Both the position numbers and the translations under genes were made by a program. The notes below the pieces were generated by a model. That model did no database searches. It worked only from the letters and a program-made list of their open reading frames with translations, and was not told the DNA's origin. From Bacteroidaceae bacterium (lineage in GTDB: Bacteria > Bacteroidota > Bacteroidia > Bacteroidales > Bacteroidaceae): a DNA stretch of 64,000 nucleotides. Shown piece after piece: positions 8,582 to 62,200 of this stretch (positions within the stretch are counted from its first letter, which is position 1; every line of letters begins with the position of its first letter). The stretch lies in contig JAFZSP010000010.1 of assembly GCA_017619335.1 (NCBI GenBank), positions 1 through 64,000 on the forward strand, written 5' to 3'.

Positions 8582-8621
8582 AACGAAATTCAAGAGCGAC
8601 CATACATATATTCTATCAGAT

Positions 8622-8759
8622 ATGAATACAAGCAGAATTATCGCCCTCATCATTATGGGCATCTTTACAGTCATCCTCATCTACTGCATCTGGAAAGGCC
8701 TCCGGATACAGCGGCACGACGAGCGCAGGGAGGATGATAAGTTGAGAATTGAAAGTTGA
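8622..8759 (+). CDS. Small single-span membrane protein (45 aa)
   Basis: From the ATG at 8622 the product has one hydrophobic helix (residues about 4-24, SRIIALIIMGIFTVILIYCI) followed by a strongly charged tail (RIQRHDERREDDK). An upstream frame extension to 8541 would run through the promoter and is unlikely. I do not recognise the family. It sits between the RlpA-like gene and the small YxxP peptide gene and probably shares a transcript with the latter. Confidence 0.55.
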   Translation: MNTSRIIALIIMGIFTVILIYCIWKGLRIQRHDERREDDKLRIES

Positions 8760-8794
8760 AACATATTATTTAACAGCCATCACACAATAACAAA

Positions 8795-8980
8795 ATGAAA
8801 AAGATTTATGAAATGCCCGAACTTCGGGTCACAATGGTCAAGACGACTCACATGCTTTGCACCAGCACCACAGAAGTGCTCAACATCTCCACCGGCGTAG
8901 GCATCGGTTACGGCGGAGGCAGCAACCAAGCTGCCCGCGTCAAGGAAATCCTCGACGGATGGGAAGACTGGGAAGAGTGA
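8795..8980 (+). CDS. Small YxxP peptide (61 aa), first of three in the window
   Basis: The product begins MKKIYEMPEL, has LCTS at residues 21-24, a Gly-rich middle (GVGIGYGGG) and an acidic, Trp-containing end (DGWEDWEE). Aligned from residue 1, it shares K2, K3, Y5, P8, T23 and S24 with the peptides at 44851-45015 and 48511-48666, which also end in Trp and acidic residues. There is no hydrophobic signal peptide. It lies 43 bp upstream of a large exported-protein gene. The Y-x-x-P near the start resembles the leader motif of lasso peptide precursors, but no modifying enzyme is nearby. Function unknown. Confidence 0.7.
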   Translation: MKKIYEMPELRVTMVKTTHMLCTSTTEVLNISTGVGIGYGGGSNQAARVKEILDGWEDWEE

Positions 8981-9023
8981 AGAATGGACAACTGATTACC
9001 TACTTATTATAATAAGGTGTATC

Positions 9024-10373
9024 ATGGCACAAACAATTCACATAAAGAACAAGGTCCTCGCAGCAGTGCTGACGTTAGCAGCACTCCTGACGGGACAGAA
9101 CCTGTGGGCGTGGGAAGGCTCAGGAACAAGCGAGAGCCCCTACCTCATAAAGACAACCAGCGATCTCGACCAACTGGCCACCGAAGTGAACGCCGGCACC
9201 AGTTATAGTAGCACGTTCTTTAAGCAAATGGCCAATCTCGACTACAAGGATGTCGCCCTTGTCAATGGCTCGAACTATACAGCCATTGGTGTTCCCGAAC
9301 ATCCATTCCGCGGTACTTTCGATGGGAACAACAGGACCATTAGCGGCATCCGCATCAACAAGAGCGGCTCCAGAGACCAGGCCCTCTTCGGGAATATCGG
9401 CAGCGGTAGCACCGTGAAGAACGTCATCCTCATTGACGCAGATATCACAGGCAGTCAATATGTCGGAGGTATCGTGGGATTCAACGCAAGCGGCACCATA
9501 CAAAACTGCCTTGTGTTCAACTCCACCTTCACCGCATCTTCTAAAGTCGATGCCGTTGTGGGTGACAATAATGGCACGCTCAGCAACAACTACTATCACA
9601 ACTGCACTGTGAACAGTAGCACCAGCAGTAGCATCATAGTCATCCATAATGATGACACCGCCCTGGCCGAAGGCAAAAAGAACACAGACGTCATCACCGC
9701 CAATACCGGCACAGGCAAGAATGTCATCCTCTATGGCCGCACCCTCTACAAGGACGGCGGTTGGAACACGCTCTGCCTGCCGTTTAACCTGACCATCAGC
9801 GGAAGCGTGCTCGATGGAGCAGACGTGCGCACACTCAGCAGTACCAGTTTCAACAGTTCAACGGGCGAACTCACCCTCACCTTCACGGCCGAGGGCGATG
9901 TGACAACCATGCTTGCCGGCACACCTTATATTATTAAGTGGGCCAGCGGAACCGACATCGTGAACCCCACATTCGCCAATGTAAAGGTGAAGAAAGACGC
10001 TGTCAATGTCTCGAAGGATCACGCCGATTTCATCTGCGCCTATAGTTCTGTCCCCTTAGAAGCCAACGACAAGACAAAGCTGTACCTGGGTTCAGGGGAG
10101 AAACTGTACTACCCCAACGCCGCTGTGACCATTAACGCCTGCCGCGCCTACTTCCATCTGAAAGGCATCACTGCAGGTGACAAGGAAAAGGACGTCCGTT
10201 CCTTCCTGCTGAACTTCGAGGACGACTCATTGCCGACCAGCCTCAGTGCCCTCAACCCCACAGAGGGGCTTGGAGAAGGCCACTGGTATGATTTGAACGG
10301 ACGCCGGTTGGTCAAGCAGCCTACTCAACGCGGCATTTATATCCATAACGGCAGAAAAGTCGTGATACCATAA
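9024..10373 (+). CDS. Exported GLUG-repeat adhesin-like protein with the shared C-terminal motif
   Basis: The 449-residue product has a signal peptide (about 1-29, ending LLTGQNLWA). A region of beta-helix/GLUG character follows (about 85-175; RGTFDGNNRTISGIRINKSG, SQYVGGIVGFNASGTIQNC). A module then starts with GGWNTLCLPFNL and contains LAGTPYIIKW (about 245-330). The C-terminus is WYDLNGRRLVKQPTQRGIYI followed by HNGRKVVIP. GLUG repeats occur in bacterial adhesins and IgA peptidases. The terminal motif is shared with five other proteins in this window and probably marks them for export or anchoring on the surface; type IX secretion is a guess. It is the first of three co-directional exported-protein genes. 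Confidence 0.8.
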   Translation: MAQTIHIKNKVLAAVLTLAALLTGQNLWAWEGSGTSESPYLIKTTSDLDQLATEVNAGTSYSSTFFKQMANLDYKDVALVNGSNYTAIGVPEHPFRGTFDGNNRTISGIRINKSGSRDQALFGNIGSGSTVKNVILIDADITGSQYVGGIVGFNASGTIQNCLVFNSTFTASSKVDAVVGDNNGTLSNNYYHNCTVNSSTSSSIIVIHNDDTALAEGKKNTDVITANTGTGKNVILYGRTLYKDGGWNTLCLPFNLTISGSVLDGADVRTLSSTSFNSSTGELTLTFTAEGDVTTMLAGTPYIIKWASGTDIVNPTFANVKVKKDAVNVSKDHADFICAYSSVPLEANDKTKLYLGSGEKLYYPNAAVTINACRAYFHLKGITAGDKEKDVRSFLLNFEDDSLPTSLSALNPTEGLGEGHWYDLNGRRLVKQPTQRGIYIHNGRKVVIP

Positions 10374-10422
10374 TCATTGAGCAAGTAATAATCACATATT
10401 TAAAAGTTAACATTTATACTTT

Positions 10423-42491: not shown

Positions 42492-44804
42492 ATGAAACAA
42501 AAATTACTCAAGAAACTTTCATTGCGAGCAACAATGTTCGTAATGATGCTCGTGGGAGGCTTTATGTCCCTCATGGCACAGAATGACTACTCTGCCGTGT
42601 TTACCAGCAATGTAACACTCACCACAGAGGGCGGCTCAAACCTCAGTGAAGCAAAGGTGGTAATCAATGGAGAATCATTTGATGCAATAAAGGCTGGTAC
42701 CAATTCCAAGGCTGGTGTTATGTTCATCGTAGCTCCTGCCGGTACCAAATACCTGCATTTCCACATTGCTGGTTGGAACGGCAAGGCCGTAAAGCTTTCT
42801 GTTTTAGGTAATGAGGGGTCTGTCTTCATGGAAAACTATGATTTGACCTCTGATACAGGTATTGCCAACAACAGTCCATTCACTTTCGCTGGTGATGCCA
42901 CAAGCACAGACTTCTACAAAGTCATCACTTTCACACAACCACTTGCTGGAGAAATGACTTTAAGACTTGAAGCAACGGCCAACTTCCGCTTTGTCATCTG
43001 GGGCGTTAACGCAGAATTAGGTGGCACCGTGGTCAACAAGGTATCCAAGCCAGCAATTAACGGTGAGACTCCTTTCTATGAGAGCACAGCCGTGACCATC
43101 TCTTGTGGCACATCGGATGCCACCATCGAATATAGCACCGACGGCGGCGAAACTTGGCAGCCCTACACTATCCCCTTCCGTCTTCTGGAAACCACGACCG
43201 TTATGGCCCGTGCCACAAAGAGCGGTCTTGATGATAGTGATATCGCAGAGAAGACCTTCACCAAGTTGGCTCCCGTCTCCCCCGCAGAGGCTCTGGAAGC
43301 AAATATTGGTGACGTGGTATTCGTGGCAGGCGTTGTCTCCGAAATCGTTACTCCGTTTAACGCTTCTTTTGGCAACATTTCCTATATGATTTCGGACGGT
43401 GAAGCTGAAATTCAGGCTTACCGCGGTATTGGCCTCTACAAGGAGAAATTCACTTCTGCAGACGATCTCCTCGTTGGCGCTGAAGTGGTTGTCGCCGGCA
43501 CCATTAGTGAGTATAATGAAGTCAAGCAGTTGGCCGCCGGTAACTACCTGCTTTCTTACAAAGCCCCTGAAGTGGTGAAGCAAGATCCCAAAATCGATGT
43601 AGAAGATGTGACCGTTTCCTATGGTGAATCATTCACCCTTGATGCAGAAAAGATTGAGGGCGGCGCCATCACTCTCACCAGCAGCAACCCGACTGTGGCC
43701 GAGGTTAACGGACTGACCATCAAATCCAAATCAGTGGGCGAGGCTACCATCACAGTAGCCACAGCAGCCAACGCTCTGTACTATGCCGGTGAAGAAACCT
43801 TCGAATTTGAAGTGCTCCAGCCCGAAGGCAAGACCGAGGGCGATGCTAGCAACGCGTTCAAAACCGAGTTCATCAACAAGGATCTGGAGTATGTATCTGG
43901 CATCGACTGGACAGCCAGCATCCCTGCCAACAGCTTTGAGTCCCAAAGCCCTGCTCGTGGCGTGCAGTTCGGAGCAGCCAAGGGCGTGTTCACCATCACA
44001 GCCAAGAACAGTGCCAAGGTCACACTCGTGGAACTGTGGGTATCCACCAATGGTGAAGGCAACACTGTCTCTGTGAAAGTCGGCGACACCGATTTCATTG
44101 CCAAGGAATATGAAGACGCAACGACTGTCACTTTGAAGAAAGAGAACCACTATGCAGTCTCCTTTACAGGTGAAGCCTCTGGCGACATCGTCATCACCAT
44201 CAACAATGTAATGAAGAGCGTGTACATTAAGAGTATTGGTCTGGTGCTGGCAGGCTCTGACGATGCCATTGTCACATTGAACGATAAGGGCTTTGCCACC
44301 TACTGCTCCGAGTATCCTCTGGATCTCTCCGCTATCAAGGGTGGCTCCGCATGGCAGCTCATTACGATTAAAGACAACACCGCTTGGTTTGACCAGGTGT
44401 ACATACCCGTCATAGGCGGTGAGGGCCTGCTGCTGGAGGGCGAACCGAACGCCGAAGTCACTATCCCCGTCAAGAGCAGTACCACAACACTGCCCAACAA
44501 TCTGCTGATTGGTACACTGGCTCCCACCTTCTCAGAAGACAGTGAGTATCTTGGTCTCAAGGGTGACAAGTTCTTCTTGGTGGATGAAGGCGTGATTCCC
44601 GCCAACAAGGCCCTCATTGACGCCGACTTGGTTGACTATGCCTCAGTGAAGGAATTCCAGCTGGTATTCAACGGCATCACGGGTGTCAAGACTGTCAAGG
44701 TCAGCGCTCAGGAATTTTCCGAGATGTTCAACCTCGCTGGACAGCGTGTGAACAAGAATACCAAGGGTGTGGTCATCAGCAATGGCAAGAAGGTCATTCG
44801 TTAA
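42492..44804 (+). CDS. Exported Ig-like / OB-fold protein with the shared C-terminal motif (cassette 1)
   Basis: The 770-residue product has a signal peptide (about 1-30, ending GGFMSLMA). Approximate layout: a jelly-roll-like domain (32-175); a chitobiase-C-terminal-like repeat (190-255, SDATIEYSTDGGETWQPYT); an OB-fold-like domain (265-360, NIGDVVFVAGVVSEI); a Big_2-like domain (370-440, VTLSSNPTVAEVNG type); a second jelly-roll-like domain (450-590); and a C-terminal module with NDKGFATYCSEYPLDLSAIK. The end is FNLAGQRVNKNTKGVVISNG plus KKVIR, a variant of the motif shared by six proteins here. The small YxxP peptide gene follows after 46 bp. It probably acts at the cell surface; the ligand is unknown. 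Confidence 0.8.
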   Translation: MKQKLLKKLSLRATMFVMMLVGGFMSLMAQNDYSAVFTSNVTLTTEGGSNLSEAKVVINGESFDAIKAGTNSKAGVMFIVAPAGTKYLHFHIAGWNGKAVKLSVLGNEGSVFMENYDLTSDTGIANNSPFTFAGDATSTDFYKVITFTQPLAGEMTLRLEATANFRFVIWGVNAELGGTVVNKVSKPAINGETPFYESTAVTISCGTSDATIEYSTDGGETWQPYTIPFRLLETTTVMARATKSGLDDSDIAEKTFTKLAPVSPAEALEANIGDVVFVAGVVSEIVTPFNASFGNISYMISDGEAEIQAYRGIGLYKEKFTSADDLLVGAEVVVAGTISEYNEVKQLAAGNYLLSYKAPEVVKQDPKIDVEDVTVSYGESFTLDAEKIEGGAITLTSSNPTVAEVNGLTIKSKSVGEATITVATAANALYYAGEETFEFEVLQPEGKTEGDASNAFKTEFINKDLEYVSGIDWTASIPANSFESQSPARGVQFGAAKGVFTITAKNSAKVTLVELWVSTNGEGNTVSVKVGDTDFIAKEYEDATTVTLKKENHYAVSFTGEASGDIVITINNVMKSVYIKSIGLVLAGSDDAIVTLNDKGFATYCSEYPLDLSAIKGGSAWQLITIKDNTAWFDQVYIPVIGGEGLLLEGEPNAEVTIPVKSSTTTLPNNLLIGTLAPTFSEDSEYLGLKGDKFFLVDEGVIPANKALIDADLVDYASVKEFQLVFNGITGVKTVKVSAQEFSEMFNLAGQRVNKNTKGVVISNGKKVIR

Positions 44805-44850: not shown

Positions 44851-45015
44851 ATGAAAAAGACATATATGACTCCCGCAGTGAAGAGCGAGTATTCCTCTCT
44901 CTGCGAAATAGTGGCAACCTCCACGATCGATGTAGCCATCGACACGGAAGGCAGCGTGGATGCCGGAGATGTCGATGTGAAAGCCAACGACTGGAACATC
45001 TGGGGTGAAGATTAA
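44851..45015 (+). CDS. Small YxxP peptide (54 aa), second copy
   Basis: The product starts MKKTYMTPAV, has the conserved T23-S24 (VATST), an acidic middle (DTEGSVDAGDVDVK) and ends ANDWNIWGED. The start ATG is preceded by ACAACGCTAT, and the same ACAACGCTAT-ATGAAAAAGA stretch starts the peptide gene at 48511. It shares K2, K3, Y5, P8, T23 and S24 with the peptide at 8795, and the NDWNIWG end with the one at 48511. There is no signal peptide. It is the last gene before a terminator, so it is probably made from the same mRNA as the large exported protein. Function unknown. Confidence 0.75.
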   Translation: MKKTYMTPAVKSEYSSLCEIVATSTIDVAIDTEGSVDAGDVDVKANDWNIWGED

Positions 45016-45057
45016 TCCTCACGTGTATTCCTATGTACAATAAATAAGTAAAGCTTT

Positions 45058-45114
45058 GACGCTGGGTGGACAGGTTCCTATTTTACCTGTTCACTTAGCG
45101 TCTTGGTTTTTTTT
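45058..45114 (+). terminator. Terminator of cassette 1
   Basis: A long stem (GACGCT...ACAGGT / ACCTGT...AGCGTC, 45058-45102) is followed by a T-run (45107-45114). It lies 43 bp beyond the stop of the peptide gene. The bases from 45115 to 45240 hold a weaker hairpin (about 45145-45171, AAAGCAGGG...CCCCTGTTTT) and the leader of the next gene; I see no clear TAnnTTTGC box there. Confidence 0.8.
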
Positions 45115-45240
45115 AGATAACTAACTTTTTCCTTTACCAAAATCAAAAAGCAGGGAAGGCCCCTGTTTTTTCACCTAAATAAACAGAACAGTATTTCCTT
45201 AACATCAGACTATTTATCTACACCATTAATCTACAAAGCA

Positions 45241-48200
45241 ATGAAACAACTATTACCTAAAATATTTGCGCTCAAAGCGTTTTTGTTCATTGCCATGCTC
45301 GTTGGAAATATCAGCGGAGCATGGGCTGACGAAGAAACCATCGATTTCTCAACATTAGGTTATGAGAATAGTGTACAATATCCCACAACCACCAAAGGAG
45401 AAGTAACAGTAACTTTTGGCGATGGTTCAAATGATGGCAAGTACTATACCACGGGTTCCGCTATTCGAATTTATAGTAATGGCTATGCCAAATTTGAGGC
45501 TAATGGAGCTACTATTACTAAGGTCGCCCTCACTTTTGCGACAACAAGTGGTAATTATCCTACAGATGAAATTGGCGAATGGTCTTCTGAAGGCAAGACT
45601 CGCTCAAATCTGGACAGTGATTGTTATTGGGAGGGTTCTGCTACATCCGTAAAAATCACTCGTACAAATGCAAGTAGTGGTCATTGGCGTCTGCAAAAAG
45701 TCACAGTCACCTATAGTGGCACCTCCAATCCTGCCGTAGCAACACAGACCACCATCAACGTTCCCGAAGACTTCAACACCGATATTAATGCTGGTACCAC
45801 AGCAGGACAGTTGACAGCCTCCGTGGTTGCTGCCGAAGGAGAGGTCATTCAGAATCCAACCATCACATGGTCTTCTGCCAAGCCAGACGTTGCCACCGTT
45901 GATGAAAATGGCAATGTAACCCTCTTGGCTACTGGTTCCGCCTCCATCAAAGCCGAATATGCGGGCGTGACCAATGAGTATAAACCGTCAAGCGATGTAT
46001 TTACTTTTACGGTAACGAACAGTGATGCCACAGTCCTCACCATCGCAGAGGTGCGTGCACAAGGAACAGGTGAGGTCATCACCAAGGGCATCGTCACCAG
46101 CAATGAGGGTACAACGGCCTATATTCAAGATGAGACAGCTGGCATCTGTGTCTATGGCCTTTCACTCACTGCCAGTGAAGAGGTCATCGTGCAAGGCACC
46201 CTCCAAGACTATAAAGGTTTGTTAGAAATCACGAATCCCACACTTATTGAGGTCGTTTCTCGAGCCAACACCGTCACACCAATCGTGAAGACCATCGCTG
46301 AAATTAACGCCGATTTTGCCGGCAATAATGCCCTGCAAGGTCTTCTCGTCAAGATTGAGGATGCCACCGTCACAGCTATCGATGGAAAGAATACCACCAT
46401 TGCTCAAGGCGAGAATACCATTGTGGTACGCAGAAGCGTTACACCTGACGAATACGCTGTGGACGATGTAATCACCGTCGTTGGTAACATCGGTTGTTAC
46501 AACTCCCCACAGATTGCCAATCCTATTGGAATTACTGTTCAGAGCCATCAGGAAAAAGCTGATGCCGCTTTCTCCTTTGGCGAGACCACAACATTCACCA
46601 TCACCATCGGCGAAGAGTTCACAGCTCCCCAGCTGGCCACAGCTGAAGGCTTCGATGGCATCATCACCTACGAAAGCAGCAAGAAGGAAGTGGCCACCGT
46701 TGATGCACAGACTGGTGCTGTGACCATCGTTGGCACGGGCACCACCGTTATCACCGCTTCTTCCGAAGCCACTGATGCCTTCAAGGCTGGCAGTGCAAGC
46801 TACAAACTGACCGTGAAAGAACCCGTAGTGGGAAATCTGGCAGAGTTCGACTTCCCCAATATGGGTTATGAGAATGCTGAAGTTCTAACCACCGAAGAAA
46901 AGGATGGTATTACACTGACATTTGACAAGGGGGCACACACCACTTATGGTCCCACATATTATAATACTGGCACTGCCGTTCGCCTGTATGCAGGCAACAC
47001 CATCACCGTCTCCAGTGAGAAAGTCATCACGCTGATTCAGTTCTCCTTCTCTGACCAACCCACAGCCCTGCAGTTGACATCCGGTGGCGGTGAATTCACA
47101 GAGGGTCAGTGGACTGGTTCCAGCAACGAGGTTGTCTTCACCTCCACTGCCAAGCCTCGCATCCAGGCCATCAAGGTCCTCTATGAATCCGAAGCTCAGG
47201 TGAAACTGGATCCAGAACTCGCCTTCGAGGAAGCAGAGTTCACAGTGGAACTGGGTAGCACATTCGAGGCTCCCGCTCTCATCAACCCCTACAACCTGCC
47301 CGTAACCTACAAGAGCAGTAACGAAACAGTGGCTACCGTCGACAAGACCACCGGTGCTGTTCAGATTGGAGAAACAGAAGGCATGGCTATGATTACTGCC
47401 TCCTTCCCTGGCAACAACGATTACAAGTCTGCTGCCGTCAGCTACACCATTTTCGTCATAGATCCCAATGCCACCGCCAACTACAAGGCCCTCGTAGCAG
47501 AATATAACGGTCAGTTCTTTGCCATGAACGCCACACTCGACAACGGCGTCTGGGGAGCCACCGAGGTAGCTGCTGTGAATGGTAAAGTCGTCACCAGGCA
47601 AGCCGATGAGCTCACATGGGACGTCAAAGCATACGGCAATGGGTACTCTTTCATGAACAAGGCAAATGGTAAGTTCATCGCCAACGCCGAGTCCGGCACC
47701 GCCCTCGTGGCAAGTCCCACCAAAGTTCTGTGGACCTATGATGAAGCAAATGACGGTTGGACCCTCGCTGGCCGCTCCTTTGCATACCGTGCAGGCACAG
47801 GCTTCAAAAACTACGCGATCTCCAACCTCGGTTCCGGAGAGTACGCAGGATTCACACACGCTTATGAATTCGTTGCTGGTTACTATCGTGAAGTCACCAT
47901 TTCTGAAGGCGAAGACGCCGCCGCTTGGGGCACCATCTGCCTGCCTTCCAACGTGAAAGCCGAAGACCTCGGAGGTGCAGAATTCTTCAGCATTAAGGGC
48001 ATTGATGCAGCCCATACATATATCCAGCTCCAGCCCGAGACAGAAGGACTGACTCCTGGCGTTCCCTACATCTTCAAGGCAACGAGCAACAAGGTTGTTG
48101 CCGCCTACACCGAAGACTCCGCAGTGGAAGCTCCCGCCACAAACGGTGCACTCATAGGTTCATTCTCCGGCGAGGAAGTGGCTGCTGGTATGTACCTCCT

Positions 48201-48462
48201 CTCTCACGGTGAGATTGTGAAGTGTGGAGAAGGATGCAAGATTGAAGCCAACCGTGCCTATATCGATCTCACCAAGGCAGAAGTCCTTGATGGCGATGTG
48301 GCAGAGGGCGTAGCCGTCAAGCTCTTCATTTCTGGCAACGCCACAGGCATCACCAGTGTGAAGGCACAGCAGGCTGGCGAGGCCTACGACTTGACTGGTC
48401 GCCGCGTCAACACCACCAAGTCTGGTCTCTACATCATCAATGGCAAGAAGGTTGTCCGCTAA
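45241..48462 (+). CDS. Exported Ig-like / OB-fold protein with the shared C-terminal motif (cassette 2)
   Basis: The 1073-residue product has a signal peptide (about 1-29, ending ISGAWA). A domain starting DFSTLGYENSVQYPTTTKGE (about 34-160) is repeated at about 545-655 (DFPNMGYENAEVLTTEEKDG). Big_2-like domains (TWSSAKPDVATVDENGNVTL, TYESSKKEVATVDAQTG, TYKSSNETVATVDKTTG) and OB-fold-like domains (ITKGIVTSNEGTTAYIQDET, about 270-430) lie between. A module with AAWGTICLPSNVKAEDLGG (about 895-1000) comes before the end, YDLTGRRVNTTKSGLYIING plus KKVVR. Its general plan is that of the cassette 1 protein, and it too is followed by a small YxxP peptide gene, after 48 bp. Confidence 0.82.
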   Translation: MKQLLPKIFALKAFLFIAMLVGNISGAWADEETIDFSTLGYENSVQYPTTTKGEVTVTFGDGSNDGKYYTTGSAIRIYSNGYAKFEANGATITKVALTFATTSGNYPTDEIGEWSSEGKTRSNLDSDCYWEGSATSVKITRTNASSGHWRLQKVTVTYSGTSNPAVATQTTINVPEDFNTDINAGTTAGQLTASVVAAEGEVIQNPTITWSSAKPDVATVDENGNVTLLATGSASIKAEYAGVTNEYKPSSDVFTFTVTNSDATVLTIAEVRAQGTGEVITKGIVTSNEGTTAYIQDETAGICVYGLSLTASEEVIVQGTLQDYKGLLEITNPTLIEVVSRANTVTPIVKTIAEINADFAGNNALQGLLVKIEDATVTAIDGKNTTIAQGENTIVVRRSVTPDEYAVDDVITVVGNIGCYNSPQIANPIGITVQSHQEKADAAFSFGETTTFTITIGEEFTAPQLATAEGFDGIITYESSKKEVATVDAQTGAVTIVGTGTTVITASSEATDAFKAGSASYKLTVKEPVVGNLAEFDFPNMGYENAEVLTTEEKDGITLTFDKGAHTTYGPTYYNTGTAVRLYAGNTITVSSEKVITLIQFSFSDQPTALQLTSGGGEFTEGQWTGSSNEVVFTSTAKPRIQAIKVLYESEAQVKLDPELAFEEAEFTVELGSTFEAPALINPYNLPVTYKSSNETVATVDKTTGAVQIGETEGMAMITASFPGNNDYKSAAVSYTIFVIDPNATANYKALVAEYNGQFFAMNATLDNGVWGATEVAAVNGKVVTRQADELTWDVKAYGNGYSFMNKANGKFIANAESGTALVASPTKVLWTYDEANDGWTLAGRSFAYRAGTGFKNYAISNLGSGEYAGFTHAYEFVAGYYREVTISEGEDAAAWGTICLPSNVKAEDLGGAEFFSIKGIDAAHTYIQLQPETEGLTPGVPYIFKATSNKVVAAYTEDSAVEAPATNGALIGSFSGEEVAAGMYLLSHGEIVKCGEGCKIEANRAYIDLTKAEVLDGDVAEGVAVKLFISGNATGITSVKAQQAGEAYDLTGRRVNTTKSGLYIINGKKVVR

Positions 48463-48510
48463 AGCTGAATGTAAAATATATAATGTATAACCTATAAAGA
48501 ACAACGCTAT

Positions 48511-48666
48511 ATGAAAAAGATATATTTGAAGCCTGCTTTTGCAGCCATGACGATGGACGAGAGCCTCCCCATCGCCACCAGCCTGAATATCAACGATGAG
48601 CCTCAGGACAACATCTCTGGCGATGTCAAAGGCAACGACTGGAACATCTGGGGCGACGAAGATTAA
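48511..48666 (+). CDS. Small YxxP peptide (51 aa), third copy
   Basis: The product starts MKKIYLKPAF, has T23-S24 (IATSL), an acidic middle (NINDEPQDNISGDVK) and ends GNDWNIWGDED. It is closest to the peptide at 44851: both the end (NDWNIWG plus acidic residues) and the untranslated leader (GTATAA...ACAACGCTAT) match. The cassette ends in a terminator at 48701. Function unknown; see the entry for 8795 for the shared residues. Confidence 0.75.
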   Translation: MKKIYLKPAFAAMTMDESLPIATSLNINDEPQDNISGDVKGNDWNIWGDED

Positions 48667-48780: not shown

Positions 48781-48886
48781 TGTCTCATTAGTGAGACAGG
48801 GTTGTCTCAAAGGTGAGACAAAGGAGTCTCATTATTGAGACAGGGTTGTCTCATTAATGAGACAGATGTGTCTCACCTTTGAGACA
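48781..48886. repeat. Array of five 18-bp palindromes at an exact 22-bp period
   Basis: TGTCTCATTAGTGAGACA (48781-48798), TGTCTCAAAGGTGAGACA (48803), AGTCTCATTATTGAGACA (48825), TGTCTCATTAATGAGACA (48847) and TGTCTCACCTTTGAGACA (48869-48886) start every 22 bp, with 4-bp spacers (GGGT, AAGG, GGGT, GATG). A half-site (TGAGACA) follows at about 48891. It lies between a terminator and the MATE transporter promoter. The sites look like operators of a dimeric protein placed on one face of the DNA. They are not CRISPR: the spacers are four bases long. The bases from 48900 to 49060 hold nothing else that I see. Confidence 0.85.
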
Positions 48887-49066
48887 AACATGAGACAAAG
48901 GACGTGCAGGGCGATGCGGCAAATAGCTCATTCGGTTTTGGGGGAATAATAGGTGATTTCAACGCGGTCGGGGTGTTGGCTGCACACCTTTTACAAAACT
49001 TAGTTAAAAAAGAAAGGGGAAGATAATAAAAACATCATTTTAGGATTCTATCTGTCAAAAAAGCAG

Positions 49067-53295: not shown

Positions 53296-56200
53296 TTATC
53301 TCATCACCTTCTTGCCGTTCACGATGTAGATACCCTTGCGAGCAGCTTTCTCCACACGGCGTCCGCTGAGGTCATAAATGCCATCGGCAAGGTTGCCGGC
53401 CTGACGCAACATAAAGGCTGGAATATCCTCGATGCCGTCTGCTGGATCCTCGAAGAGCTTGACGGGAGCGTTGCCCGGAGTCTGCACATAGGCCTCGAAG
53501 GGCAGCACGCTGCGGCTCTGCGGCAGGAAGATGCTGCCCTCGGCGTGTCCGTCAATAACTTCACGGTTAATGGCTAAGATGTCTGCGGCCGCAGCCTGAC
53601 GACGGAAGTTGGAGATAAGGGAGAGGCCATTGGCGTCTGTCACGGTCTCGGGTGCGGTGACTCCGATGGTGACGTTCTGTCCCTCGAAGGTGACATCGCC
53701 AGCGAGGATATAGCGGTCTGCATACTCGGGATTGTTCGGCATGGAGACGGCGTAGGGCTTGTGGGCCTCGATGGTGGTGGCCACCTTGAAGCCGTCGGTC
53801 TGCAACTCACGCAGCCAGAAGCGCGGCAGCTGCACATCCTCCGGCAGTTCTACGCCGAACGGCACGGCTTCACCACGGGTAGCGTGGGTGATGCGGGTGA
53901 CGTTGAACGGCACTGCCAAGGTCTCCCAACCGCGTGTCTCGCCGATGCCTGTCTGCATGGCGTAATGGTGGGTATAGGTCACCTGCTTGGCAAAGAACGG
54001 ACGCGGGCTGTGGAAGTTGCCGTCGGTGGCGGCATCGGTCAGTGTGATGTTCGCGGCCTGACGACCCACGATGACATTGCTGACGGTGGTGGGAGCGTAT
54101 GCGGCCAGCGGCACATAGAGCAGGAGGTTGGGATTCTCCACTCCTGTGAGAGCATCAGCACTCAACGGCATTGCAGCGTTCCAGATGATGGCAGAGAGCT
54201 GATGACAGTCGGTGAAGAGGGCATTGCCCGTCTGCTGCAGGTCGGCAGGCAGTTCGGCAGTGACCAGACTGCTGCCGGCAAAGGCGCCAGCAGGCAGTTC
54301 ACGACCTGTGACAGACACCAGCTTCAGGTCTGCGGTCTCCAGGGCGGTGGTCTCTGTGCGGATGGTGGCGAAGTCTGCTTCACCCATGCGACCGAGAACG
54401 GTAAGGGTCTTCAGCTGAGACTTGTCCATCCAGGCCAGGGCCTGTGAGAGAGAGCCGGGCGTGCGGAGTGTGGCGGTCAGTCCGTCGAAGTATGCGGGCA
54501 GTTCCAGCAGACTCTCGTTGGAAGGATTGCTGCCTTCCTTGACGGCGATGGCACGGACGGTGCAGAGGCCGTCGGCAGCGGTCTGACCCGTGTAGAGGGC
54601 CGAGAGCGCGGTGGGATTGGAACCGTCCGTGGTGTAGTAGATGGCAGCGCCGTCGGTAGCAGTGAGTGTGAAGGAGTGACCGTCAAAGTCGATACCCACA
54701 GCCGACAGCGCAGGCAGTGCGGTGTCGAAGGTGGTGACCTCTGAATCCCTGTAACCTTCACGCACGGCCAGCGCCTGCACCACAGTACTATTATTAACAA
54801 GGAACGGGTGCGCGTACGCGGGCGAGGCTGTGGTGGGCACAGTGCCGTCGGTGGTGTAATAGATGGTGGCATCGGGCGTGAGACAGCTCAGGGTGAGTTC
54901 ACCGACGTTGAGCGCGTAGGCAGGCAGGTCGGCCTGGAAACAATCGATTTCCAACTGTGCTTCTTCACTGTCGCCATAACCTGTCTTCTTGGCCACAGCA
55001 CGAACGAGGCCATTGCGCTCCAGTTCGATGGCACCCGTGTAGGGCGTGGTGGGCGCGGCACCATTAAGGGAGTAGTAGAGGGTGGCACCGTCGGTGATGG
55101 TGCTGATGGTGAGCAGGCGGTCGGCCAGGATGAACGTGGGCTGTGCACAGTGTTCCTCTGCCGGGTCGATATCCACCACGAGCATATTGGAAGTGGTGTA
55201 GCCGTCACGCACACCGAAGGCCTTGATGGTGGTGCGTTCCTCCAGATAAATGGGTGCATCAAAGACGGGGCTGGAGGTGGTGGGCGTGCTGCCATCGAGG
55301 GTGAAGTAGATGGTGGCGTTCGGGGTCTCGGTGGTCAGATAGAGGAAGCGCTCGAAGAGCTCGGCACGGATGTCTTCCACACGGAAGCGGTCTGTGACGA
55401 ACTCTGCCACGCCGGAAGTGCGGAAGCCCGGGGCGATGGCGATGGCACGGACGGTGCAGTTGCGGGTGAGCTGGATGGGTGCCGCATAGACGGTGCTCAT
55501 CTCTGTCGGCATCGTGCCGTCCATGGTGTAATGGATGACGGCGTCGGGTGTCGGGCAGAAGATGTGCAGCAGTCCGTCGGCGAACTCGAAGATCGGCGTC
55601 ACAGCGCTGGGATTCTCCAATGAGAAGTAGTAACTGGAGACGTTGGAGGGCTGCATCTGCTCACGCACAGCGATGGCGTGTACCACACAGCTGTGGTCGA
55701 TCGTGATGGGTGAGGTGTAACGCTCACTCTGCTCACTGGGCTGACTGCCGTCAATGGTGAAGTAGATGCGGGCACCTTCCGTGGCTGTCTGCATCGCCAG
55801 ACGACCGCCTTCATAGATAAAGGTGACATCCTCCACGGTGAACCAGTTGACCATGTAGGTGCTGACGCCGCTGGGCAGCGTGTTGTCGGCCACGGCGATG
55901 GCGCTGACCACGCAGTTCTCGGTCAGGCGAATCGGACCTTCATAGAGGGCTGAAGCCGTGGTGGGCGTGGTGCCGTCGAGGGTGTAGTAGATGCGGGCCT
56001 CCTGGGTAGCAGAGGTGAGGATGAGTTCGTCTCCGCTGCGGCTGAAATTCGGCGTGGCAGCAGTGACGGTGGCAGTGCGGAACTGGAAGATGGAAGCCTC
56101 GGCAGTGGTCCAGCCGTCCAAGAAAGCAGCTGCGCGAACATCAGTGTCCTGCGTGAGCAACAGCGGATGGGTGTAGGCGGTGCTGGTGGCCACAGGTGCC

Positions 56201-59200
56201 GAACCGTCCAGGGTATAACGGATGGTGGCATCCGGTGTAGCCGTGTGGAGTACCAGTTCAGGACCTTCCAACATGAATTCCACGCTGGAGACACGGAACC
56301 AATCCACCTGATAGAGCGAGATGGCAGAAGCCATGTAGTTGCTACCCAAGGCAATGGCTCGCACCACACCGTTGCGGGTGAGCTGAATGGGTTCGGTGTA
56401 CATCTGGCTGGAAGAGGTGGGCTCGCTGCCGTCCAGGGTGTAATAGACCGTCACATCTGTCACACCTGTACTGATGGACAGCACATTACCATTTCTGCGG
56501 AACTGAGGAGCGGGAGCGGTGTGGGCGTCACGGTTGAAGTGGAAGAGGCTCACAGCCGAGGGGTTCCAGCCCTGACGATAGGCGATGGCACGGAAATCGG
56601 CATCTGCCGTCAGTGTCAGCGGTGCCACATAGGGCGCTGAACTCTGGTCGGGAATGGTGCCGTCGATGGTGTAATAGATGGCGGCGTCAGGAGTGGGCGT
56701 ACTCATGGTGAGTTTCAGGCCATCCAGGGCAAACTCCACGCCGGAAACCTGGAACCAATCCACGGTGTAGGCACTGACGGCGGAGGGGAAGTAGAAGTGC
56801 TCGTTCAGGGCGATGGCACGGATGGTGCCGTTCTCGGTGAGTAGGATGGGTTCGGTATATTCCATGGAAGCCTCCGTGGGCTCGCTGCCGTCTGTGGTAT
56901 AGAAGATTTGAACATCCTGCACGCCCGCAGTGATGGAGAGCTGGTTGCCGTTGCGGTAGAACTGCGGCGTGGGAGCGGTGACAGCGGCGCGATTGAAGTG
57001 ATAGAGCGTCACGTCGGACGTTTTCCAACCCTGACGCACAGCGATGGCGCGGACGTCACAGTCGGCCGTGAGCATGATGCGGTCGGTATAGACCTGGCTT
57101 TCCTCACTGGGATAGCTGCCGTCGGTGGTGTAATAGATGGTGGCGTTGGCGGTGGAGGTGTACATCTCTAAGTAGAGTTCGTGATAGGCAAACTCCACGC
57201 GCTCGGTCTGGAACCAGTCAACGGTGTAGCTCACGACGGGTGAGGGGTTGAAGTTCGGGCCGGTAGCCATCGCACGGATGGTGTAGTTCTGCGTCACCTG
57301 TATGGGTGCCGAATAGACCTGAGAAGCGGTGGTGGGCACGGAGCCGTCCAAGGTGTAATAAACGGTGGTGCCCTCGGTGATATTCGTGATGGTCACGAGG
57401 TTTCCTTCACGGCTGATAACGGGACTCTCTGCGGTGACATTGCTGAGGCTGAACTCGTAGGAAGAGACCTCTGAATCCTGCCAGTTCTGACGCATGGCGA
57501 CGGCCTGCACCACACAGTCACTTGTCAGCTCGATGGGTTGCTGATAGACTGGGGACTGGGCGTTGGGCGTGGTGCCGTTGATGGTGTAATGGATGGTGGC
57601 TCCAGGCGTCGTCGTGCTCATGGTCAGGTGCAGGTTGTTGAAGGAGAAGTCCACATCGGCCACCTTGAACCAGTTGACCTGATACTCGCTCAGTGCAGAA
57701 GGATAGAAGCCTTCGGCCACCGCCATAGCGAGTACCACACCGTTGCCGTCCAACTGGATGGCACCAGTGTAGGAAGGACTCTCAGTGGTGGGTTCGGTGC
57801 CGTCCAAGGTGTAATGGATGGTAGCACCTGACGTCGTGGTGGTGATGAAAAGCTGGTTGCCATTACGGCTGAACTGCGGTTTCACCACGGTGACATCTTC
57901 CAGGAAGAAGTCGTAGGCGGTGACCTCGGAGTTCTGCCAGTTCTGGCGCACGGCGATGGCACGCACCTTACTGTCAGCGGTCAGCTCTATGGGTTCGGAA
58001 TAAACCTTCGTGTTACCGGTGCCAGTGGTGTTGGGCGTGGTACCATTGGTGGTGTAGTAAATAGTGGCATCGGGCGTGGCGGTGCTCATGGTGAGCCGCA
58101 GGTTGGCGTAGGTGAATGTCACGTCGGCCACCTTGAACTCACTGGCGACGTATGTACCGATGGCAGAGGGATACATATCACTCTTCAGGGCGATGGCTTT
58201 CACCGTCACGTTTCCGCTGAGTTGGACGGGATTGGTGTAGGCGGTGGACTGTGCCGTCGGGTCGGTACCGTCGGTGGTGTAATAGATGGTGGCACCGGAA
58301 GTGGTGGTGGTGATGAGCAGCTCGTTACCCTGACGACTGAACTGAGGCGTTGCCACGGTGACAGCGGCCAAGGTGAAGGCGTAGGTGGCAGCCGCAGAGG
58401 GTGTCCAACCTTCCCTCACGGCGATGGCACGAACCACGCAGTCCGCCGTCAGCTCGATGGGAGCGGTATAAGCGGTGGAGGTGGTGGTGGGCACGGTGCC
58501 GTCGGTGGTGTAATAGATGGTGGCACCTTCTGTAGCGGTGGTCATCGACAGACGGAGATTGGTGTAGGCAAACTCCACGACAGCCACCTGGAAGTCATTG
58601 CTGCTGAAGTTGGCCACAGCAGAGTTGAACAGGTCTGAGCGCATGGCGATGGCCTTCACCGTCATATTTCCATCGAGGGTGACGGGAGCGGTGTAAAGAG
58701 TGGATTGTGCCGTCGGGTCGGAGCCATCGGTGGTGTAATAGATGTCGGCACCTTCTGTGGCTGTGGTGATGGTCAACGTGTTGCCCTCACGATTGAACTG
58801 CGGCGTGGCAGCGGTGTGATCAGCCAGCACAAAGTCGTAGGAGGTACTCTCTGAATCCGTGTAACCCGAACGCAGGGCGATGGCGGTGACAGTGGTGTTA
58901 GCGGTCAGCGAGAGCGGAGCGGTGTAGGCCGGGCTCTGGGCCGTGGGTGCTGTGCCGTCAAGGGTGTAACGAATGGCCACACCTGGAGTAGCAGAAGAGA
59001 GGACGACGGTGCGATTCTCGTAAGCAAAGGTGACGGGCTCACACTTGAACCAATCCACCTCGAAGGTGGTAACCGCAGATTGTGCCATACCGCTGGCCAC
59101 GGCCAAAGCCTGGATGGTCTCGTTCCGCGTGGGGGTGATGGCTTCGGTATAAAGCGTGGAGGCAGTGGTGGGCGTGGTGCCGTCCTCGGTGTAATAAATG

Positions 59201-62200
59201 TCAGCGCCGACGGTGGCAGAGGTGATGATGACCGTGCTGCCCTCCCGTGCTATCACGGGTGCAGCGGTGGTGCTAGCATCGATATTCACATCGTATGAGG
59301 TGGAAGCAGACTGGTTGTAGCCCGGACGCTTGGCGATGGCCTTGACAGTGGTGTTCTGCAGAATCTCGATGGGTTCGGTATAGACGGTGCAAAGGGTGTC
59401 GGGTTCTGAACCGTCCAAGGTATAGTAGATCTTGGCACCCGTGCTGGCCGTGGTCATTGTCAAGTTAGGATAGGAATAGGAGAAGAGCACGACAGAAGTA
59501 GTCAGCCAGTTGACCGTGTATTCTGTGTATGACGGCAAAAGTCCTGTGGCGGTGGCAAGGATATTGAGTGTGCCGTTGGCCGTAGGAATGAAGGGTGCCG
59601 TGTAGGGGGTATCGTTGGTCGTGGGAGTGGCACCGTTGGTGGTGTAATAGAAGGTGGCACCTTCCGTGGCAGAGGAGATAGTGAGGTAATCACCGTTGCG
59701 AATCACCACGGGTTCAGCCACGGTGTAGTCGGCTGCCACGAACGTATAACTGCTCACCAAAGAGTTGGTCCAACCCTGACGAACGGCCATGGCCTTCACC
59801 GTGCAGTCAGCACTCATCGGTAACGGAGCCGTATAGACAGACGATGAAGTGGTGGGGGTAGTGCCATCCAACGTGTAATAGATGGTGGCACCGTCGGTGG
59901 CACACGTGAGGGTGAGCTTCAAGGCGTCGTAGGCAAAGGCCACGGTGTCACACTGGAACTCACTGGCGATGTAGGTGTTGACAGCGGAGGGCAGCAAGTC
60001 TGTGGCATAGGCTCTGGCGCGAACCGTCACATTGCCTTCCAAAACGATGGGCTCGGTGTAATGTAAACTGTTCTGGTCGGGATCCTGCGGAGCGGTGGCG
60101 GACAATCCGTCATCAATGAGGTAATAGATTTCAGCATTGGGCGTGGCGGAGGTGATGGTCAGTTTGCTGTCCGCAAAGGCGAACTCCGGTGTGGCCACGG
60201 TGTAATCAGAGGCCACGAAAATGTAGGTGCTGACATCAGAGGTGGTCCAACCCGTGCGCACAGCGATGGCTTTCACCGTGCAACTGGCCGTCAGGCTGAT
60301 GGGAGCGGTATAGGCGGTGCTGGCGGTGGTGGGCACGGTGCCGTCCATCGTGTAATAGATGGCAGCATCGGCAGTGGTGGTGGCCAGCGTCAGCTTCAGG
60401 GCGTTATAGTCGAAGGTCACGGTATCACACTGGAACTCACTGGCGATGTAGGTGTTGACAGCAGAAGTGAACATACCATCCTTGTAGGCAATGGCCTTCA
60501 CGGTGACATTGCCGTCCAGGGTAATCGGTTCGGAGTAAAGCGTGGCGTTGTTGTCTGGATCTGCATCAGCATTTACATTATAGTATATATGCGCGTCGGG
60601 CGTGGCAGAAGTAATGGTGAGTTGGGTACCGTTGCGAGCGAACTGAGGTGTTCCCACGGTGTGCTCTGCCAACACGAAATGGTAAACAGAAACCTGTGAG
60701 GTGGTCCAGCCCGTGCGCACGGCGATGGCACGGACGGTGCAGTCAGCGGTGAGGTTCAGCGGTGCTGAGTAAACGGTGCTGCTGGTAGTGGGCACGGTGC
60801 CGTCAGTGGTGTAATAGATGGTGGCACCCTCAGTAGTAGTGAACAGCGAGAGTTGAAGGTCGTCATATACGTAGGCCACGGTGTCACACTGGAATTCCGT
60901 CACCACATACTCATTGACACCAGAGAGATAGTAACCCTGAGCGATGGCCACAGCCTTCACAGTCACGTTGCCGTCCAGTTCCAGGGGAGCAGTGTAAGGC
61001 GTGCTGGTGGTGTCGGGATCTTCCGCTGCATCTACATTATAGTATATTTTGGCTCCCATCGTGGCCGAAGTGATGGTCAGACGAGCGTTTGCAAAGCTGA
61101 ACTCCGGTGTGGCAGTCACATGGTCGGCCAGCACGAAGTCGTAGGTGCTCACCTCGGAATCGTCATAGATGGAAGCATTGATGGCAATGGCCTTCACAGT
61201 GGCATCAGCGGTCAGCTCGAAGGGAGCGGTATAGGCCGTGGACTGCGCTGTGGGCGTGGTGCCGTCAAGGGTGTAGTAGATGGCAGCAGCCGGTGAGGCG
61301 GAGGTGATGGCCAGGCGCAGGTTAGCATAGTTGAAGACCGGTGCCGCAGCCTGCACACCCGTCACTGTCTGCATCACCACTGGCGAAGAGGCCAGGCTGC
61401 TGCTCTTGGCGGCAGCATAGAGATAACCGTTATAGGTGGGATTGATGCCGACGCTGAGGTCTGTGAGTTCACCGCCTTGCACTTCCGGCAAGTCAATATT
61501 GTTGGCGGCCATCTGCTCTTCGCGGGCAGCGACGGCAGCAGTATAAGCGGCCAGAATCTGCTCGTAGGTGGTCAAGGACAGCTGCGTGGCCGAGAGGAGG
61601 TAAGCCACAGTGGTACCCTCACTGGCACTGGCGAAGGAGATCTGACCGCCTTCCATGGTGATGGAGGGTGCGACTGCCTGATGGTCGGCCAGATTAAAGA
61701 CCGTGATTTCGGAATCCATCCAATTCGCTCTCAGTGCGATGGCCTTGACCACAGCTCCCTGCTGCAGAGTGATGGGGGCCGTATAGACGGAGCTGGTGTC
61801 GGATGGCACATCACCGAGGGTGTAATAGATGGTGGCACCGTCGGCCGTGCTGGGACTTTCCATCGCCAACTTGTTGTCTGTAAAGGTGAAGGTGACGTTC
61901 TCACACTTGAACCAGTCAACTGCGTAGGTGACGATGTTGGAAGGAACCTTTTCCGGAGCCACAGCCTGCGCCTGCATATAACCGCTCGGAGCGTTCTCCG
62001 TGAACAACACGGGTGACTCATAAAGCGTGGTGGGCAGGTCACCTGCATCCGGGCTGTAATAGATAATGGCACCCGCATCTTCACAAGTGATTGTCACTGT
62101 ATTGTCTGTCCGGCTGAACTGAGGCTCGGCAGTGATGTGACCTTCACGGGTGAAGATCGTGACGTTGGAAGCGGCAAAGCCGCTGCGCTGACCAAAAGCC

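Follow-up and report, generated by a model that had tools for sequence, protein, structure and literature searches.

The window analysed here, a stretch of 64,000 nucleotides from a Bacteroidaceae genome, contains three short genes for peptides of the form MKKxYxxP, each next to the gene of an exported protein (Table 1). We recovered the three open reading frames as the first-pass annotation had given them, with K2, K3, Y5, P8, T23 and S24 common to all three in an ungapped alignment. A search of the peptides against Pfam and NCBIfam assigned no family, and a literature search by peptide sequence string and by T9SS terms found nothing. A signal peptide was rejected, the hydrophobic stretch being absent. 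AlphaFold2 modelling of a peptide gave a pLDDT of 66, a pTM of 0.14 and no fold; such a foldless model is consistent with a disordered precursor, but is not evidence for one.

Table 1. Features of the window and of the enzyme operon found on another contig (C40) of the same genome (G000)
Feature	Position	Strand	Remarks
Peptide gene 1	8795..8980	+	61 aa, MKKIYEMPELRVTMVKTTHMLCTSTTEV...DGWEDWEE; precursor candidate; profile E 7e-14
Exported protein	9024..10373	+	449 aa, same kind of tail; starts 43 nt 3' of peptide 1
Exported protein	42492..44804	+	770 aa, ends NLAGQRVNKNTKGVVISNGKKVIR; 46 nt ahead of its partner, peptide gene 2
Peptide gene 2	44851..45015	+	54 aa, MKKTYMTPAVKSEYSSLCEIVATSTIDV...NDWNIWGED; profile E 6e-17
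Peptide gene 2, putative leader	44851..44913	+	residues 1-21, KKxYxxP RRE tag, if cut before A22 as in LPP (PMC13381572); profile homology ends at residue 26
Peptide gene 2, putative core	44914..45012	+	A22-T23-S24 to Trp/acidic end; S24 probable phospho-acceptor
Exported protein	45241..48462	+	1073 aa, Big_2 domains, ends YDLTGRRVNTTKSGLYIINGKKVVR; 48 nt ahead of its partner, peptide gene 3
Peptide gene 3	48511..48666	+	51 aa, MKKIYLKPAFAAMTMDESLPIATSLNIN...NDWNIWGDED; profile E 1e-14
Discrete RRE, PqqD fold	G000:C40:71561-71827		PF05402 3e-17; on the minus strand
S24/S26 signal-peptidase-like protein	G000:C40:71849-72400		TIGR02228 (sigpep_I_arch) 5e-5
HprK-like kinase	G000:C40:72400-73290		Walker A GTGKST; HprK_rel_A/ScmC matches

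The peptides of the window belong to a much larger family. In the same genome, the DNA pattern ATGAARAARNNNTAYNNNNNNCCN, which corresponds to MKKxYxxP, occurred at 26 places, versus 0 for the reversed pattern; by translation about 24 of these are true members, while two (L022 and L026) appear fortuitous. A peptide profile gave 38 matches at E<=1 in this genome, about 34 of them below 1e-3, and had matches in all 24 congeners searched. The purifying selection on which the first-pass annotation had made its proposal depend was evident in 66 close pairs, where the pooled pN was 0.18 and pS 0.50; the frames are therefore selected as protein. The core had a dN/dS as low (0.23) as that of the leader (0.22). 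The motif [hydrophobic][ACG]xS ended at residue 24 in 71 of 92 distinct peptides (at 24 or 25 in 76), compared with a mean of 7.3 after shuffling. Residue 24 was Ser in 85 and Thr in 9 of 107 distinct peptides, so that Ser24 is not universal. The Trp/acidic end seen in the three window peptides proved to be general, with a Trp within the last 20 residues of 98 of the 107 and a mean net charge of -5.8 past residue 24.

The association with exported proteins extended beyond the window as well. The partner proteins share a tail of the type 'NLAGQRV...GIYIVNGKKVV' (CTD), and about nine out of ten peptides lie on the same strand as the gene of such a protein and behind it, mostly by no more than 300 nt. 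The CTD gene was directly upstream of 39 out of 44 peptides (35 by regular expression and 4 by eye, the window included) and of 21 out of 22 in a second set; conversely, a peptide followed 13 of 31 CTD sites. All three window peptides adjoin a CTD gene, as had been described, peptide 1 in the opposite order to the other two. The pairing was also found in a genome with 18 peptides (G050) where SprA was not found. A leader or secretion-arrest peptide acting on the downstream gene was considered and rejected: it is the upstream neighbour that stays constant, and the gene downstream often lies on the opposite strand. The tails (YDL.GR+V ... GIYI+NGKK) resemble the end of the sorting domain of T9SS type A cargo (TIGR04183, Por_Secre_tail), from which they differ in that this model touched only 2 of 22 tails, weakly (best E 0.039), and that AlphaFold2 modelling of the CTD (pLDDT 70, pTM 0.43) gave no significant PDB match.

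No processing enzyme had been seen by the first-pass annotation because the enzyme genes lie outside the window, on another contig. There, adjoining rpoD and not adjacent to peptides, we found an operon of just three genes, which encode a discrete RRE, a P-loop kinase of the HprK-like kind and a protein resembling S24/S26 signal peptidases; next to this operon there is neither a nucleotidyltransferase nor an ABC exporter in this genome. The RRE matched lasso PqqD models, and its nearest PDB chain was the lasso protein TfuB1 (6jx3, 2.7e-6). N35 and D73, 38 residues apart, were invariant in 18 sequences and correspond by fold position to N33 and D70 of LppB, 37 apart, which hydrogen-bond the P and Y of a YxxP leader (PMC13381572); binding of YxxP by the RRE is thus predicted from sequence. 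The kinase has an invariant GTGKSTH and resembles HPr-rel-A (TIGR04352, with TIGR04353 PqqD_rel_X) and SynChlorMet ScmC, systems in which an HprK-like kinase goes with a PqqD-like chaperone, but its matches (TIGR04352 1.8e-5, ScmC 2.5e-5) were far under the curated cut-offs (24 versus 200 bits). Comparison of an HprK profile with the PDB gave nothing convincing. In the predicted peptidase, Ser67 (SMxP), His105 (HR) and Asp120 (GDG) were invariant in 19 sequences, and Sec11-type chains were among the weak PDB matches.

Other Bacteroidales carry the same enzymes in a single, larger operon that also encodes a nucleotidyltransferase, an ABC exporter, a surface lipoprotein and a YxxP-AxS peptide. 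The gene order was peptide-HprK-S24-PqqD-NTase-ABC in G192 and peptide-lipoprotein-PqqD-NTase-ABC-HprK-S24 in G102 and G120, with a similar order to the latter in G188, G179 and G401; the nucleotidyltransferase and exporter were present at the clusters of G192, G283, G102, G120, G188 and G401. Among 726 small ORFs at 53 PqqD/HprK loci, which take in G188 with four related matches and G102 and G120 with one and the same peptide, 15 had the form YxxP-[ACG]xS, as compared with 0.7 in each of two controls (in the reversed-sequence control, 7 of 6850 candidate ORFs, or 0.74 per 726). Profile homology between the dispersed and the operon-linked peptides was confined to residues 1-26 (E 1.3e-6). Across 151 genomes of the family, the kinase was detected in 77 of 80 peptide-positive and 43 of 71 peptide-negative genomes (p 3e-8), an association confounded by ancestry; for SprA, a T9SS marker found in 74 of the 80, the p value was comparable (5e-9). 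The three peptide-positive assemblies in which the kinase was undetected (G084, G107 and G178) are 86-94% complete. A T9SS accessory role as sole explanation was rejected, in view of G050 and of the pairing of operon peptides with lipoproteins.

This gene set matches that of the linear polyphosphorylated peptides (LPPs; Popov et al. 2026, Nat Commun), so that the 'unknown class' considered previously is not wholly unknown. Both systems have a discrete RRE, an HprK-like kinase and a leader peptidase resembling archaeal-type signal peptidases, to which the full clusters add an NTP transferase and an MsbA-like exporter. At the clusters of both, no cyclase is seen and polysaccharide genes are frequent neighbours, and the precursors of both have a conserved N-terminal YxxP, a variable C terminus and a conserved Ser about 18-19 residues past the Tyr (19 here, 18 in LPPs). 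LPPs, however, are stated to occur in Bacillota alone (PMC13381572), where a cluster has one to three precursors and where they were reported with no known role, while we found the present peptides in Bacteroidales, as tens of putative precursors that are encoded in trans and each have an exported-protein partner, and with an operon in the source genome that holds only RRE, kinase and peptidase. The LPP leader has the consensus YxxPxVLxHQxIxFETxxS (PMC13381572), of which the HQxIxFET part is absent here. As only YxxP, a hydrophobic residue at P+2 and the Ser are shared, we file the system as LPP-type rather than as a member of the LPPs.

The MKKxYxxP peptides are thus probably trans-encoded precursors of a Bacteroidales RiPP system of the LPP type. 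The leader would extend over residues 1 to about 21, with KKxYxxP presumably bound as a beta strand by the one discrete RRE. The HprK-like kinase may phosphorylate the near-invariant Ser24, third residue of a core starting with A-x-S, and the signal-peptidase-like protein would cut the leader off at a site predicted from the LPP case, leaving a core of some 25-45 residues that is acidic and Trp-ended. A single machine would in this way serve up to about 40 precursors scattered across the genome. Because nearly all of these are co-encoded with a large exported protein, the matured peptide would be exported and most likely act in concert with its partner on the cell surface.

The position of the cut could be read otherwise. 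The A or C at residue 22 and the S at residue 24 obey the -3/-1 rule, and the peptidase is of the S24/S26 signal-peptidase kind; A-x-S24 might therefore be a signal-peptidase site cleaved after Ser24, the kinase-like protein or the nucleotidyltransferase modifying another residue, and the nine peptides with Thr24 also speak against a strict Ser phospho-site, an LPP with Thr in place of the third core residue (S3T) not being phosphorylated (PMC13381572). We consider this unlikely. The LPP peptidase is of the same type, and its cut falls between T-1 and the A1-Q2-S3 with which the core begins; S3 is the phosphorylated residue (PMC13381572), and the distance from the Tyr fits the equivalence of S24 and S3. 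On this precedent, cleavage before A22 is likelier than after S24.

It could also be argued that the peptides act unmodified, each as a small chaperone, inhibitor or immunity-like partner of the adjoining exported protein, the RRE operon being a bystander of shared ancestry. The pairing with CTD genes is indeed the most constant feature, G050 included, and the core is as constrained as the leader. This reading appears quite improbable to us, as one leader is common to all peptides, whichever the partner protein, and homologous leaders are found inside the RRE/kinase/peptidase operons of other genera.

Lasso peptides, to which the first-pass annotation had compared the YxxP motif, deserve separate mention. 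The RRE part of that idea was supported, by a discrete RRE with invariant Asn and Asp and by the operon-linked YxxP peptides, while lasso biosynthesis does not hold. KKxYxxPx[LM] does resemble lasso leaders, and the RRE has its nearest counterparts among lasso B1 proteins. The G at P+6 and the penultimate T of lasso leaders were, however, absent in our peptide alignments; inspection of the genes catalogued around PqqD/HprK, by terminal sequences and, for selected genes, Pfam, revealed neither an Asn-synthetase-like cyclase nor a transglutaminase-like B2 protein; and an S24/S26 peptidase replaces the B2 cysteine peptidase. Canonical lasso peptides are therefore very improbable. The phosphorylated lasso peptides of the paeninodin type share the RRE-leader logic and have kinase and nucleotidyltransferase accessory genes, but differ by their cyclase, B2 peptidase, lasso core pattern and a Trp instead of a Tyr in the leader motif. 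Chance or non-coding ORFs, which the shortness of the frames might suggest, are refuted by the conservation of both peptide ends, the 26 places versus 0 and the lower pN than pS.

The LPP enzyme set takes the form of a core operon in Prevotella-like and other Bacteroidales, where it would serve up to about 40 precursors, nearly all of them beside exported-protein genes. If the peptides are LPP-type precursors, the pairing provides the first consistent functional context for the LPP class and a likely function for many unannotated small ORFs of gut, rumen and oral bacteria, and the role of phosphorylated RiPPs becomes testable through deletion of one operon. One may go further and speculate, tentatively, on a peptide-companion system that spans the genome in Bacteroidales. 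Tens of exported surface proteins would each be accompanied by a separate polyphosphorylated peptide, encoded alongside the protein and matured under RRE guidance by a single central machine; the peptide would travel with its protein or become attached to it, and would belong to the general process of assembling the surface or attaching polysaccharides to it. This we hold to be possible, though doubtful. For tens of dispersed substrates to share one recognition machine is uncommon in RiPPs, the prochlorosins being a precedent.

A related arrangement was observed on a Butyrivibrio plasmid. A tblastn search of plasmids with one peptide gave no match, as expected for a short and divergent query. 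The plasmid encodes a MKKAYVKPEL peptide, without AxS and without BLAST similarity to a window peptide, between an HprK-like kinase and PqqD plus S24/S26 genes. Its kinase and the predicted kinase of the rpoD-linked operon are 34% identical across half the protein (E 2e-16).

The first-pass annotation had described three short genes of the window as a family of MKKxYxxP peptides with several residues in common, and our own translation confirmed both the open reading frames and these residues. A search of the rest of the genome and of other Bacteroidales extended the family far beyond the window. The MKKxYxxP DNA pattern matched the 3.59 Mb assembly 26 times, and the reversed pattern had no match. 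About 24 of the matches translate to family members of 46-66 aa, in which M1, K2, K3, Y5 and P8 are invariant and S24 is near-invariant. Their middle varies and is acidic or rich in Gly, and their end, often ALVKxxxxWDIW, contains Trp and acidic residues. With a profile, we found 38 matches (E<=1) in the same genome, and matches in all 24 congeners searched and in 80 of the 151 family genomes (16 of the 30 genera); beyond the family, they were chiefly in one genus of another family. The named matches were rumen Bacteroidaceae/Prevotellaceae MAGs. The frames, expected to be constrained if real, had a pN of 0.18 versus a pS of 0.50 in close pairs, the constraint being alike on leader and core. 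Contigs labelled Ruminococcus (L099, SIG535) and Oscillospiraceae (L102, RGIG2617) also matched the DNA pattern, and translation of these places gave no MKKxYxxP frame of the right length; the matches are due either to chance or to mis-binning. One 369 aa frame (L173) opens with the leader sequence MKKIYTQPRIETVATTPQQILCASGG of the peptides and continues with lipoprotein-like sequence; either the leader has become fused to an exported protein, or a stop codon has been lost.

The peptide genes had also been claimed to neighbor genes of exported proteins with a shared C-terminal motif. Of 44 cases, 39 (35 by regex, 4 more by eye) indeed had such a gene as their immediate upstream neighbor in the same orientation, as did 21 of 22 cases from five more genomes belonging to two families. 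The tail of this partner (CTD protein) is like YNLAGQRVNKAQKGIYIVNGKKVVR, and its distance to the peptide is mostly 1-280 nt. A strict DNA pattern for the tail occurred at 31 places in the genome (0 in the control), 13 of which were followed within 200 nt by a peptide of the profile set, for an estimated expectation of about 0.03. In sequence, the tail is similar to the last part of the T9SS type A sorting domain, and TIGR04183 was touched by only 2 of 22 tails (best E 0.039). SprA was present in 74 of the 80 peptide-positive genomes; it was looked for and not found in G050, a genome with 18 peptides, those examined adjoining CTD genes. Both giant ORFs of the window carry the tail motif. Downstream of the third peptide gene, TGTCTCA occurs ten times in alternating orientation, the copies being nearly all spaced by exactly 11 bp with one step of 22 bp; they make up 10 of the 19 copies in the window, where 12 would be expected in all, and are possibly a regulatory or terminator-like array.

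Coordinates of the features (strand where reported)
Feature	Sequence	Position	Strand
Peptide genes, MKKxYxxP family	window	8795-8980, 44851-45015, 48511-48666	+
Giant ORF, 3196 aa, tail motif GIYIINGQKIVIK	window	10423-20013	+
Giant ORF, 3435 aa	window	53296-63603	-
DNA tail pattern in the 3435 aa ORF	window	53306-53334	
TGTCTCA array, intergenic	window	48781-48897	
Apparently exported protein, IYIFGFAASFTDSIACQT... (L119)	L119 (own genome, contig 40, G000:C40)	12288-12815	
Leader-containing frame (L173)	L173 (G416:C10)	5448-6557	
Plasmid locus (L216)	L216 (pNP243, NZ_CP146964.1)	8587-10610	

As the annotation had proposed, we looked for co-occurring RRE genes. PF05402 (RRE fold) matched 136 of the 151 family genomes and, in the own genome, one standalone 88 aa protein encoded outside the window on contig 40. 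Starting from rpoD, the genes there code for proteins of 175, 296 and 183 aa and then for the RRE. The 296 aa product carries a P-loop, GTGKSTH, that is invariant, and weakly resembles HprK-related kinase A and ScmC. The 183 aa product is S24/S26 signal-peptidase-like, and its Ser (SMxP), His (HR) and Asp (GDG) do not vary among 19 relatives. N35 and D73 of the RRE are invariant; among solved structures, its closest relative is TfuB1, a lasso B1 protein. Human oral Prevotella sp. oral taxon 299 (L214) has the same operon. The apparently exported protein encoded between rpoD and the kinase gene of the Prevotella-type operon (146-175 aa in L119, L121, L122, L130, L133 and L214) belongs to no Pfam family and may be part of the system.

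These enzymes recall those of linear polyphosphorylated peptides (LPPs), stated to be restricted to Bacillota in a report that leaves Bacteroidales unmentioned (PMC13381572). The LPP core set comprises an archaeal-type signal peptidase (LppS), a discrete RRE (LppB), an HprK-like kinase (LppK), an NTP transferase (LppN) and an MsbA-like exporter (LppD). LppB holds the Pro and Tyr of the leader, YxxPxVLxHQxIxFETxxS, through N33 and D70; the kinase adds several phosphates to Ser3 of the core (AQS), and LppS (Ser, His, Asp) cleaves before A1 only when LppB is present (PMC13381572). The peptides described here have a YxxP ... [AC]xS motif, with 19 residues from Tyr to Ser compared with 18 in LPPs and in G192; N35 and D73 of the RRE stand at a spacing equivalent to that of N33 and D70, and the peptidase keeps the Ser, His and Asp of LppS. 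The earlier hint at an RRE partner pointed to the correct kind of system but not to the correct family, which is probably LPP-like rather than lasso. The available passages of a Bacteroidales RiPP survey (PMC10352776) cover rSAM, YcaO and GG-motif systems and contain no description of an RRE/kinase/peptidase peptide system.

In other genomes, peptides were found inside the enzyme operons. That of G192 has a peptide (MKKLYTSPEIEVVEVIEYGFAAS...) at its head, with HprK, S24/S26, PqqD, a PF14907 nucleotidyltransferase and an ABC exporter. G102 and G120 share the order peptide, lipoprotein (1086 aa), PqqD, NTase, ABC, HprK, S24/S26, with similar arrangements in G188, G179 and G401. In G070, 261 nt separate the PqqD gene from a peptide and its CTD partner. 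Over 53 PqqD/HprK loci, Y..P.{13,14}[ACG].S was present in 15 of 726 small non-overlapping ORFs, compared with 0.7 after residue shuffling and 0.74 when the sequence was reversed. Some of these hits duplicate each other, and the one in L125 appears fortuitous. Profiles of the dispersed and operon peptides matched (E 1.3e-6) over residues 1-26 only, as expected of a common leader with unrelated cores. On the Butyrivibrio fibrisolvens D1 plasmid pNP243, a Cys-rich 57 aa peptide (MKKAYVKPEL..., WP_167562696.1) is encoded between an HprK-like kinase and PqqD, followed by an S24/S26 peptidase and pssD/pssE. Its RRE gave a gap-free match to the own-genome RRE (31% identity, E 3e-16) and its peptidase also matched (E 6e-10). 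The locus looks like a plasmid-borne LPP-type cluster in Lachnospiraceae.

The kinase was found in 77 of 80 peptide-positive versus 43 of 71 negative family genomes (p 3e-8), a comparison confounded by ancestry. It was present in all six peptide-positive genomes devoid of SprA. Among 295 genomes of the order, the three besides our own with at least 7 pattern matches were all kinase-positive, for 21 of 295 overall, ancestry again being a confounder.

Taken from sequence, the most likely interpretation is that these Bacteroidales have an LPP-type RiPP system whose many precursors are dispersed and paired to exported proteins. Judging from homology and motifs, the RRE would bind KKxYxxP, the kinase would phosphorylate S24 and the peptidase would remove residues 1-21. 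We conjecture that an exporter, as in the full clusters, would then move the core, which might act with the exported protein encoded beside the peptide. This overall scheme appears the most likely one, with as contrary signs the replacement of S24 by T24 (9 of 107 peptides), other residues at 22 or 24 in several own-genome peptides, the missing HQxIxFET part of the leader and the distance, in the own genome, between the peptide genes and the enzyme operon.

In three loci (L163 in G259, L157 in G053 and L201 in G179), HprK/PqqD/S24 genes lie within exopolysaccharide export loci with Wza- and Wzc-like genes. This setting parallels that reported for LPPs in Bacilli and suggests a link with surface polysaccharide.
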